Source: Balneolaceae bacterium
Lineage (GTDB): Bacteria; Bacteroidota; Rhodothermia; Balneolales; Balneolaceae
Direction: 5' to 3'
NCBI GenBank assembly: GCA_007694095.1
Contig: RECI01000179.1
Location: 1-64,000 of the forward strand
DNA: 64,000 nt
Each line of letters opens with the position of its first letter. Within the stretch, counting starts at the first letter, position 1. The position numbers were made by a program, and so were the translations under genes. Shown here one piece after another: positions 3,998-7,291 of the stretch. The notes under the pieces were generated by a model. It made no database searches. It was not told the origin of the DNA and saw only the letters and a program-made list of their open reading frames with translations.

Positions 3998-4450
3998 CTA
4001 TTTTTTGAGTTTACTTAATACCTCGGGTGATTGAATTCGCCGGTGGATGGTTTCATCGTCGGGAATGCGGGGTTTGTCGCGGTATCGGTCTACAATACAG
4101 ATAAAGCCCAGCGGTTCATTCGTATCGGCAAGAAATTGGTGTATGGTATCAGGCGAAATAAAAACAGTATCGTATAACCCGAGTGGGTGAACCTCATTTT
4201 CAAGAAGAAGTGTACCACCGCCCCGAATAACGATTACACTGTGCGGATGCCGGTGCATTTCGAGTGAAGAATAACCGCCGGGGGCAATCTCAAAATAGCG
4301 CGTCTGGAAATTAAGTTCGGAAATATCATCACCTAAAAGCGTGAACCGGTGAATATCTTTAAAATTCTGGGTGTCTGTTTTGTACTCTTTTTTTTCGACT
4401 CCTGTCCAGCTGTATCCGTCTGCTTTTAAAACTTTTGATTTCTTATTCAT
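3998..4450 (-). CDS. Cupin protein, partner of the RuBisCO-like protein
   Basis: A 150-residue single-domain cupin. Start chosen at ATG 4448-4450 because this ATG overlaps the stop of the upstream RuBisCO-like gene (8-nt overlap, translational coupling); a longer frame from 4492 would lie deep inside that gene. Motif 1 is MHRHPH followed by VIVIRGGG, giving the metal-binding histidines, but the usual motif-1 Glu is not obvious. Motif 2 is PDTIHQF, then LGFICIVDRYRDKPR. In Rhodospirillum rubrum a cupin acts after a RuBisCO-like isomerase as a 1-methylthioxylulose 5-phosphate methylsulfurylase that makes deoxyxylulose 5-phosphate. The same role here is inferred from gene pairing, not shown. Confidence 0.8.
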   Translation of the reverse strand: MNKKSKVLKADGYSWTGVEKKEYKTDTQNFKDIHRFTLLGDDISELNFQTRYFEIAPGGYSSLEMHRHPHSVIVIRGGGTLLLENEVHPLGLYDTVFISPDTIHQFLADTNEPLGFICIVDRYRDKPRIPDDETIHRRIQSPEVLSKLKK

Positions 4451-5555
4451 CTGGTCCGAGCATTTGTTGAAAAGTTGCAGTAGCCTGTTCAATACCTGTG
4501 TCTTGTTTGTAGAGGCTGCCTCCTACCAGGAAAATAGTTTCTTTCCCATATTCTTTGATCCAATCAGGTATGGAAACCAGGTCTATACCGCCAGCCGGCA
4601 CCGGAAAAGAGGGCTTAAAAATACAAAAATCTTTTCTGATCTGTTGGTTCAATGCCTGGCAGGTTTCTTTTGAAAAAGTAAAACGCCCCCCTGCATTTGG
4701 ATAGATGATAGCATCCGCACCAAAAGCTCTCCAGAGTTTACCATAATAGAGCTCCATAGAGAAGCCGGTACTTTTCGGGATAACGTAAGGCCCGGAAAAA
4801 GCAGGATGTGCCATTACCGGCACCTGTGCTGTTTTTGCGATTTCGTGCATTGCTTCAATTCCGGTAAGTTGAGGTGAAATCAATACACCCTCAGCACCGA
4901 GATCAACAGCAAGCTGGAACCGTGAAAAAAGCCTGGCAGGTGAGGTGGTGATATTCGGAAAGTAGCATGTACGCTTGCCAGAATGCTGTTCCCCGTCCCT
5001 GATAGCTTTCAGGCAGTTTGAAACTCTTTCAGTAAAAGCGGCTGTTGACTGATCAGCCAGGCCGTGGTCATCTTTAATGATATCTATTCCTCCACGGGCA
5101 AATTGGCCGGCCCTGCCGGCCAGCTCAACAGCCGATAATCCTACAGGCTTGAGAGCGGTACAGCTTAATGGCCGTGTGTGAACATTGAGCAGTTTTCTGA
5201 TTCCCTGTATCCCGAATGCAGGACCGCTGAGCAGTTCAGCAAAATATTGATCATGTACGTCCAGCAGCTTGATGCCATCAAGAAGGGAAATATTTCCGTA
5301 CAGGACATTTAAAAACTGTGTAGGATCGCCATCAATTATGGAAACAGGGTAGTGGATTACAGCCTTCCAAAGATTCTCATCTATCGGATCAACCTTTTCA
5401 ATGGTTGGCAGTGATGCTGATGCTGAAGCGGGAACCGTTCCGGCCGGCATTTCGACCGACTGTTCAATGCTTATATTTTCTGCAATTTGTTCTGCCTGGC
5501 TGCGGCTATCTGCGGCCAATTGATAGACAATCGTTACATGAGTAGCATTTCCCAT
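4443..5555 (-). CDS. RuBisCO-like protein (form IV)
   Basis: A 370-residue RuBisCO large-subunit homologue that cannot be a carboxylase. The substrate-loop Lys is kept in TALKPVGLS (Lys136), and the carbamylated-Lys motif reads GGIDIIKDDHGLADQ (Lys161, Asp163), with His164 where true RuBisCO has Glu. The C-terminal loop that carries the catalytic loop-6 Lys is absent or replaced (HPAFSGPYV), and the protein is about 100 residues shorter than RuBisCO. RuBisCO-like proteins enolise sugar phosphates; known cases are DK-MTP-1-P enolase, methylthioribulose-1-P isomerase and acid-sugar decarboxylases. It follows purA after 9 nt and overlaps the cupin gene, so it belongs to a purA-RLP-cupin unit. 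Exact substrate unproven. Confidence 0.88.
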   Translation of the reverse strand: MGNATHVTIVYQLAADSRSQAEQIAENISIEQSVEMPAGTVPASASASLPTIEKVDPIDENLWKAVIHYPVSIIDGDPTQFLNVLYGNISLLDGIKLLDVHDQYFAELLSGPAFGIQGIRKLLNVHTRPLSCTALKPVGLSAVELAGRAGQFARGGIDIIKDDHGLADQSTAAFTERVSNCLKAIRDGEQHSGKRTCYFPNITTSPARLFSRFQLAVDLGAEGVLISPQLTGIEAMHEIAKTAQVPVMAHPAFSGPYVIPKSTGFSMELYYGKLWRAFGADAIIYPNAGGRFTFSKETCQALNQQIRKDFCIFKPSFPVPAGGIDLVSIPDWIKEYGKETIFLVGGSLYKQDTGIEQATATFQQMLGPDE

Positions 5556-5564
5556 CCGAAAATA

Positions 5565-6839
5565 CTATATAATGATGGTCTCAGAGCGCTTGGGTCCAGT
5601 GGAAACGATCGTAAACGGAACTCCTGTATACTCTTCAATAAACCGGATATATTCACGCGCTTTTTCGGGGAGATCCTCAAACCTGGAAATATTTCTGGTA
5701 GACTGGTTCCATCCATCAAATGTTTTATAAACCGGTTTAACCTCACTTACTTTTTCTGTATCTAACGGAAACACATTGGTTATGCTTCCATTGAGTTCAT
5801 AGTGGGTGCATACACTGATTGTATCGAAATCATCCAGCACGTCAAGTTTTGTGAGGCTCAATTCATTCATTCCATTCAGTCGAATGGCATATCTCAAGGC
5901 AACCAAATCAAGCCAGCCGCATCTTCTTGGCCGGCCTGTGGTAGCACCGAATTCGTGACCGTTTTTCCTGAGCTTCTCGCCAGTATCGTCATTCAATTCG
6001 GTGGGGAAGGGGCCGTTTCCTACGCGAGTGCAATATGCTTTTGTAATTCCCATGGAATGGGTGATGGCAGTTGGCGGAATGCCGCTGCCGGTACATGCTC
6101 CTCCTGCAGTTGGAGAAGAAGAAGTAACAAAGGGATAAGTTCCGTGATCAACATCAAGCAAACTGCCCTGTGCACCTTCAAGAAGAATAGACTCGCCATT
6201 TTCAAGTGCATGATGCAGAATTTCAGTAGAATTACAGATATAGGGTTTTACTACCCCGATTGCCGGGGCGAGTTCCGCCATCATTTTATCGGCGTCAAGT
6301 TCCGGTTCATCATACACATTTTTTAGTGCGAGATTGATATCAGCCAGGTTTTTTTTGATACTTTTTTCAAGTTTGGCTTCATCAGTAAGATCATTCATCC
6401 GGATGCCGATTCTGGATAATTTACTTACATATGCCGGGCCAATTCCTCGTCCGGTTGTGCCGATGGCATCGGATCCCCGTTTTTTTTCCTTAACATTGTC
6501 AAGAACTTTATGATAGGGAAGAATCAGGTGTGCAGAACTGCTGATAAACAGCCGTTTCTCAAGATTAACACCAAGAGCTTCCACTTCTTTAATTTCATCA
6601 ACCAATGCGATAGGATCTATCACCACACCATTACCGATGATGCACTTCGAGTCGCCATTAAACATTCCTGATGGAATAAGGTGAAGTACAATGGTGGTGT
6701 CATCAAATTTAAGCGTGTGCCCGGCATTTGCTCCACCCTGGTACCGGACTACGTAATCCGCTTCGGAACTCAGCAGGTCTACTATTTTTCCCTTCCCTTC
6801 ATCGCCCCACTGGGCGCCAATAACAATTCTTACAGCCAT
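5565..6839 (-). CDS. purA: Adenylosuccinate synthetase
   Basis: A 424-residue, full-length enzyme joining IMP and aspartate with GTP to give adenylosuccinate, the first committed step to AMP. The N-terminus carries GAQWGDEGKGK (Asp13 catalytic) and NAGHT with catalytic His41. The IMP-site segment GTTGRGIGPAY, the GTYPFVTSS segment and the C-terminal GTP-binding FTIVSTGP are all present. The start is certain because the first strand begins at once. There is no visible Shine-Dalgarno site. A hairpin with eight T residues ends only 8 nt before the ATG, an odd arrangement. The RuBisCO-like gene follows after 9 nt. Confidence 0.97.
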   Translation of the reverse strand: MAVRIVIGAQWGDEGKGKIVDLLSSEADYVVRYQGGANAGHTLKFDDTTIVLHLIPSGMFNGDSKCIIGNGVVIDPIALVDEIKEVEALGVNLEKRLFISSSAHLILPYHKVLDNVKEKKRGSDAIGTTGRGIGPAYVSKLSRIGIRMNDLTDEAKLEKSIKKNLADINLALKNVYDEPELDADKMMAELAPAIGVVKPYICNSTEILHHALENGESILLEGAQGSLLDVDHGTYPFVTSSSPTAGGACTGSGIPPTAITHSMGITKAYCTRVGNGPFPTELNDDTGEKLRKNGHEFGATTGRPRRCGWLDLVALRYAIRLNGMNELSLTKLDVLDDFDTISVCTHYELNGSITNVFPLDTEKVSEVKPVYKTFDGWNQSTRNISRFEDLPEKAREYIRFIEEYTGVPFTIVSTGPKRSETIII

Positions 6840-6946
6840 ATGATTTCAAAAAAAAGGAGGTGTAAGTAACACCTCCATATAGTTAGTTATAAATCCCGAA
6901 ATTATCAAATAATCGGGACTTCTTTATTGAATGATCCAAAAGATTA
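6840..6946 (-). promoter_or_regulatory. purA leader with two hairpins, possible attenuator
   Basis: The spacer between the STAS gene and purA contains, in transcription order, a small stem (TCCCGA/TCGGGA, 6894-6899 with 6913-6918) and then a perfect 8-bp stem with a T8 tract, ending 8 nt before the purA ATG. There is no room for a conventional promoter after the terminator. purA mRNA must therefore start at or before the hairpins and read through. That is what an attenuated leader looks like, but it has not been shown. Confidence 0.45.
6848..6876 (-). terminator. Intrinsic terminator directly before purA
   Basis: On the minus strand GGAGGTGT, a 5-nt loop TACTT, ACACCTCC, then TTTTTTTT. It is a perfect 8-bp stem with a T8 tail. 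It would end the STAS transcript, or act as a conditional terminator for purA. Confidence 0.8.
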
Positions 6947-7291
6947 TTACGAGTCTTTGAAAGATTCGATAGCCTCATCTGTGGATTTGAAATGCTTAAA
7001 AACCGTTATGAGTTTAGTGATAATCAACAGGCTTTCAATTTTATCGGTGGCGTTGGCAATTCTCAGGTCACCGCCGGCTTTCCTCATCGTGGTTAGAGCG
7101 CCAATCAGCATACCCAAACCTGATGAGTTCATAAACTTCACCTTGCTAAGATCTACCACAATATTGGTTTTTTTGCTCTCGATCAGTTCATGAAGTTTTT
7201 CATTCAGGCTGACGGCATCAGGCCCGCCCATAACATTACCTTTAAATTCGATAATGACACAATTATAACGCTCAGATACATTAAAACTCAT
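6947..7291 (-). CDS. STAS-domain anti-anti-sigma factor-like protein
   Basis: A 114-residue single STAS domain, the size of SpoIIAA/RsbV. Strands and helices match the fold, and the phosphoacceptor motif reads VKFMNSSGLGML with the candidate Ser57 (Ser56 adjacent). In that family a switch-protein kinase phosphorylates this Ser to control release of an anti-sigma factor. No kinase, phosphatase or sigma factor lies nearby, so the partner must be elsewhere. It follows secF by 27 nt on the same strand and may be co-transcribed with secDF; its own downstream terminator is the hairpin at 6848-6876. Confidence 0.85.
   Translation of the reverse strand: MSFNVSERYNCVIIEFKGNVMGGPDAVSLNEKLHELIESKKTNIVVDLSKVKFMNSSGLGMLIGALTTMRKAGGDLRIANATDKIESLLIITKLITVFKHFKSTDEAIESFKDS

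Follow-up and report, generated by a model that had tools for sequence, protein, structure and literature searches.

Methylthioadenosine (MTA) is a sulphur-containing waste product of S-adenosylmethionine, and the locus described here raises the question why genes resembling those for its salvage should stand directly behind purA, a gene of purine synthesis. The locus lies in the window, a stretch of 64,000 nucleotides from a Balneolaceae bacterium, where purA is followed by genes for a form IV RuBisCO-like protein (RLP) and a cupin. The first-pass annotation of this DNA had proposed an MTA-isoprenoid shunt linked to purine synthesis, with adenine freed from MTA accounting for the presence of purA. 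The enzymatic part of this proposal is upheld by the tree, the catalytic residues and the co-occurrence data described below, while the adenine argument is not. We consider it probable (about 0.82) that the RLP and the cupin catalyse steps three and four of the MTA-isoprenoid shunt; across the order Balneolales, their genes follow purA in what appears to be a single transcription unit. We would hence be dealing with a known enzyme pair that very probably performs its known function, but whose genomic setting is new and conserved across the order; the shunt, previously described in a few purple bacteria, would here take the form of a housekeeping operon in another phylum.

The coordinates, the leftward orientation and the tight packing of the three genes were found to be as first annotated (Table 1): a gap of 9 nt separates purA from the RLP gene, whose start lies at position 5555, and the RLP and cupin genes overlap by 8 nt. 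By family searches, the identity of purA is beyond doubt. Upstream of purA, the window contains the STAS gene, secF and secD. A hairpin followed by T8, detected in a terminator scan, stops approximately 10 nt short of the purA start codon, and hairpins of similar sequence are present 8-90 nt before purA in most of the related Balneolales loci. Because this element lies between the STAS gene and purA and recurs in most related loci, purA-RLP-cupin looks like a separate unit. The hairpin is likely the end of the secDF-STAS unit, or else an attenuator of purA-RLP-cupin; Rfam gave no match to a riboswitch or another known RNA near the operon. The window genome comprises 4.56 Mb in 324 contigs, and among named organisms it is closest to Balneolaceae MAGs and Fodinibius.

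Table 1. Features of the purA-RLP-cupin locus, in window coordinates.
Feature	Position	Strand	Description
purA, adenylosuccinate synthase	5565..6839	(-)	424 aa; first gene of the unit; PF00709 E 1.4e-185, NF002223 627.6 bits, TIGR00184 569 bits (cut-off 395.6)
Form IV RuBisCO-like protein (RLP), DeepYkr clade	4443..5555	(-)	370 aa; predicted 5-methylthioribulose-1-phosphate 1,3-isomerase; PF00016 82.7 bits (RuBisCO large-chain fold), PDB 3qfw E 6e-64
Cupin	3998..4450	(-)	150 aa from ATG; predicted 1-methylthioxylulose-5-phosphate methylsulfurylase; PF07883 (Cupin_2), PDB 3ibm E 1.5e-34
Terminator-like hairpin GGAGGTGT-TACTT-ACACCTCC, then T8	6856..6876	(-)	between STAS gene and purA; terminator scan
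STAS-domain gene	6947..7291	(-)	PF01740; upstream of purA, outside the unit, synteny conserved

Predicted functions of the RLP and the cupin

The best solved relative of the window RLP is 3qfw, to which it aligns over nearly its full length, followed by MtnW proteins (E 1e-42). We take 3qfw to be RLP1 of Rhodopseudomonas palustris, and 2qyg to be the other RLP of this bacterium. A maximum-likelihood tree built from 75 RLPs places the window protein in the DeepYkr clade together with 3qfw (support 100/99) and sets MtnW, Photo, form III and the acid-sugar proteins (3nwr/OiaX) apart from it in other clades. The residues K136, K161 and H164 had been correctly picked out in the first-pass annotation; together with D162 and D163 they are invariant in all 94 RLP rows from Balneolales that were examined (some of them duplicates) and in 11 rows from other Rhodothermia, and 3qfw carries the same Lys and KDDH residues.

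That the RLP might instead belong to the acid-sugar (OiaX-like) enzymes, or act in the canonical salvage pathway as an MtnW-type 2,3-diketo-5-methylthiopentyl-1-phosphate enolase, is extremely improbable. While its best-scoring NCBIfam matches are indeed MtnW models, these matches are far below the cut-offs (211 of 409 bits and 170 of 513.6 bits), the OiaX model reached 89.7 bits against a cut-off of 700, and the window protein carries KDDH and not KDDE. Placement in the tree, a check suggested by the first-pass annotation, excluded both clades with strong support. The canonical pathway also needs ARD (MtnD). In a sample of 46 related genomes, 26 with an RLP gene and 20 without one, ARD was over the cut-off in two, both of them RLP-free, and in none of the 26 RLP-bearing genomes, the window genome included. 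Both assignments were rejected on account of the sub-cut-off scores, the missing ARD and the tree placement.

The DeepYkr-type enzymes of Rhodospirillum rubrum and R. palustris (RLP1) convert 5-methylthioribulose-1-phosphate into 1-methylthioxylulose-5-phosphate and 1-methylthioribulose-5-phosphate in a 3:1 ratio, with kcat values of 1.2 s-1 and 1.3 s-1, respectively (PMC5893883). The cupin can likewise be related to a protein of proven function. Among solved structures it most resembles 3ibm (Table 1), 3kgz (E 1.3e-23) and 3jzv (E 3.3e-23), the last of which is Rru_A2000, the cupin of the R. rubrum shunt and a proven methylsulfurylase (PMC4958253). The window cupin and Rru_A2000 share 38% identity, with H66, H68, H70, H104, Q105 and C118 conserved, and C118 may take part in the chemistry. 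In the study that assayed the two purple-bacterial RLPs, deletion of a cupin led to the accumulation of 1-methylthioxylulose-5-phosphate (PMC5893883). None of the curated NCBIfam families matched the window cupin over its cut-off.

Across the 46 genomes, the cupin was found in 26 of 26 RLP-bearing genomes and in none of the 20 others (Fisher p 2e-13), an association that holds where the two genes are unlinked or far apart; an MtnA-family gene was present in 26/26 versus 6/20 (p 2e-7) and a strong match to spermidine synthase (SpeE) in 24/26 versus 10/20 (p 0.002), with all p-values ignoring shared ancestry. That RLP and cupin are so strictly co-inherited is strong genomic evidence that the two form a unit. 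Collectively, the tree, the catalytic residues, the homology to proven enzymes, the perfect RLP-cupin co-occurrence and the finding that the genome encodes MtnA, SpeE and Dxr strongly support the prediction that the RLP acts as the isomerase and the cupin as the methylsulfurylase of the shunt.

Steps and genes of the proposed pathway

From the order of the genes, their homologies, the catalytic residues, the clade of the RLP and the co-occurrence data we infer the following reactions. MTA, stemming mainly from spermidine synthase (SpeE, which the window genome encodes), would be phosphorolysed to 5-methylthioribose-1-phosphate and the free base, and MtnA, encoded away from the operon (G000:C138; TIGR00512 447 bits, cut-off 279), would form 5-methylthioribulose-1-phosphate. 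The RLP would then carry out a 1,3-isomerisation to 1-methylthioxylulose-5-phosphate, from which the cupin, together with a low-molecular-weight thiol, would free deoxyxylulose 5-phosphate (DXP), with the methylthio group ending as methanethiol. This DXP would enter the MEP pathway via Dxr (G000:C246; TIGR00243 430 bits, cut-off 316), beside the DXP made by Dxs (809 bits); mtnA and dxs, which the first-pass annotation had proposed to look for elsewhere in the genome, are thus both present. The R. rubrum shunt uses glutathione (PMC5893883). Since BshC was found in all 46 genomes tested, bacillithiol is a candidate for the thiol and may replace glutathione. Halophilic Balneolota are hence predicted to be a biological source of methanethiol.

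The cleavage of MTA, for which the first-pass annotation had named a phosphorylase or nucleosidase, is the step for which no dedicated enzyme was found. Neither MtnP nor MtnN was over the cut-off in the window genome, whose PF01048 proteins are only two trimeric PNPs and one AMP nucleosidase, with the MTAP model scoring 73-76 bits versus a cut-off of 275. MTA phosphorolysis is therefore probably performed by a PNP-type enzyme, and the first of the two PNPs (PNP1) is a candidate MTA phosphorylase judged by its sequence. It has an Asp at the position of Asn243 in human PNP, which we take to be a feature of MTA phosphorylases that would favour adenine directly; it also seems to be without His257, presumably another such feature, with the alignment around this position uncertain. 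The second PNP (PNP2) carries TN and LDH motifs, which we take to be those typical of 6-oxopurine PNPs. PNP1-type genes also occur in RLP-free genomes. In four Rhodothermus-like genomes (G003, G050, G058, G151) a PNP1-type gene and a second spermidine synthase gene are approximately 2 kb apart, an arrangement that would fit PNP1 acting on MTA.

One could also envisage that the pathway serves mainly 5'-deoxyadenosine, so that the RLP turns 5-deoxyribulose-1-phosphate directly into DXP and the cupin does something else. The MTA phosphorylase of R. rubrum cleaves 5'-deoxyadenosine as well (PMC4958253), and the chemistry would yield DXP in a single step. However, the cupin would not be needed for such a route, yet it accompanies the RLP without exception, and SpeE, the source of MTA, is enriched in RLP-bearing genomes. 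We therefore regard a main role in 5'-deoxyadenosine salvage as very unlikely and favour MTA as the substrate of the pathway.

Seven genomes from other Rhodothermia (G003, G008, G030, G050, G058, G096, G151) contain RLP, cupin, MtnA and Dxr, with Dxs not over the cut-off. The shunt could be the source of DXP in these bacteria; a 2023 survey suggested that five species may use it in place of Dxs (PMC10663253). The absence of Dxs was rejected as proof of the shunt, because approximately 73 RLP-free genomes of the class are also without Dxs, so that another source of DXP probably exists.

Linkage to purA and purF

Among the 54 RLP-bearing Balneolales genomes, 47 carry purA directly upstream of the RLP gene, in a conserved secD-secF-STAS-purA-RLP-cupin block. 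Kept in such a large part of the order, the linkage is more than chance: it is real, old and lineage-specific, with RLP identities among the purA-linked loci as low as approximately 40%. Within the genus of the window, most members have 4-14 nt between purA and the RLP gene. As to the seven remaining genomes, three loci end at contig edges, and four (L036, L037, L040, L041) have the RLP gene behind purF-engB in the operon of these genes (with serA intervening in one of them) and the cupin gene 5-13 kb away. The identity of purF is secure (TIGR01134 460 bits), and the four RLPs form one clade (100/100) nested among the purA-linked proteins. No purine gene was found beside the RLP gene in the loci examined outside the Balneolales, and purA in particular does not adjoin it in Rhodothermus-type families, Ectothiorhodospiraceae and Clostridia. 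No operon of this kind was known to the first-pass annotation, nor did searches of the openly licensed literature for RLPs with purA and for RLPs of Balneolaceae bring up a description of one, which is weak evidence of absence. The double purine linkage appears to be undescribed and is the new element of this system.

APRT turns adenine directly into AMP, and since PurA has no part in this step, adenine released from MTA would not in itself require PurA. In R. rubrum fed with MTA, the PurA protein decreased 12-fold while the RLP transcript increased approximately 7-fold (PMC4958253), the opposite of co-expression. These two points speak against adenine as the reason for the purA linkage. The simplest explanation for the position of the RLP and cupin genes behind purA is that they are thereby expressed steadily, in step with growth and nucleotide synthesis, while a specific metabolic reason is possible.

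We consider position or growth-linked co-expression to be the more likely of these two explanations. With the same enzymes at work, the gene pair would have landed behind a constitutive housekeeping gene in an ancestor of the Balneolales and been kept there by descent; this view competes with other explanations of the linkage and leaves the enzyme identities as they are. It is rather probable, given that purA adjoins the RLP gene in Balneolales only, that the entire secD-secF-STAS-purA block is conserved alongside, and that PurA of R. rubrum falls on MTA. It accommodates less readily the short purA-RLP spacing within the window's genus and the fact that the sole clear relocation landed behind purF, another gene of de novo purine synthesis; one event, however, cannot prove function.

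In a functional coupling to purine metabolism, the base of MTA would be channelled through hypoxanthine to IMP, PurA would be needed to regain AMP, and salvage and PurA would be co-expressed. The number of linked genomes (purA in 47, purF in four) speaks for such a connection, as do hypoxanthine being the main product that accumulates in MTA-fed R. rubrum, since a hypoxanthine route would need PurA, and the presumed 6-oxopurine specificity motifs of PNP2. Against these points have to be set the decrease of the PurA protein in MTA-fed R. rubrum and the Asp of PNP1, which presumably would favour adenine directly. Taken together, we view a specific purine coupling as unlikely. More doubtful still is the broader notion that MTA salvage in Balneolales is built into AMP synthesis, with RLP and cupin under joint regulation with purA (in one lineage, purF), the purine of MTA re-entering via IMP, and bacillithiol and a PNP replacing glutathione and MtnP. 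In any event, the purA/purF linkage poses a testable question, namely how isoprenoid supply and purine balance are connected with each other and with the salvage of an S-adenosylmethionine by-product.

Related systems in other lineages

The shunt of R. rubrum (Rru_A1998 RLP, Rru_A2000 cupin) resembles the predicted Balneolales pathway in its DeepYkr-type RLP, a homologous cupin in which the His ligands and the Cys are conserved, MtnA, and Dxr downstream. It differs in that the Balneolales, members of another phylum, have the purA-RLP-cupin gene order, no dedicated MtnP that we could find, and BshC, so that bacillithiol is possible. R. palustris RLP1, for which activity and deletion phenotypes have been reported (PMC5893883), shares with the window protein a nearly full-length alignment and the same K and KDDH residues; in contrast, R. 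palustris also runs the Ald2 shunt, and no purA linkage has been described for it. MtnW of Bacillus is likewise a form IV RLP of MTA salvage, but it belongs to the separate YkrW clade, carries a KDDE motif and operates in a pathway that needs MtnX besides MtnD.

A sister branch of the DeepYkr clade, represented by Clostridium ljungdahlii, Clostridium drakei, Nitrospirota and a Lokiarchaeote, contains RLPs that are approximately 38-44% identical to the window protein and mostly paired with a split transketolase and not with a cupin, so that the downstream chemistry varies within the clade. In 17 loci (L222:1665-7101, L210, L191 and L212, also L186, L194, L200, L211, L226 and others) the RLP gene directly follows both transketolase halves, an arrangement for which we found no description in the openly licensed literature. 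MtnK and MtnA genes are located upstream of the split transketolase-RLP genes in four of the sister-branch loci, and RLP genes adjoin them in Clostridium, Anaerosolibacter and a Lokiarchaeote. With the same upstream MTA-sugar steps and a two-piece transketolase in the place of the cupin, the C. ljungdahlii-type loci suggest a branch of MTA salvage that uses transketolase instead. In six further loci from Ectothiorhodospiraceae and relatives (L193, L197, L203, L207, L208, L216), a gene for a phosphoribulokinase-like kinase lies near the RLP gene, and two of them also contain a cupin gene.
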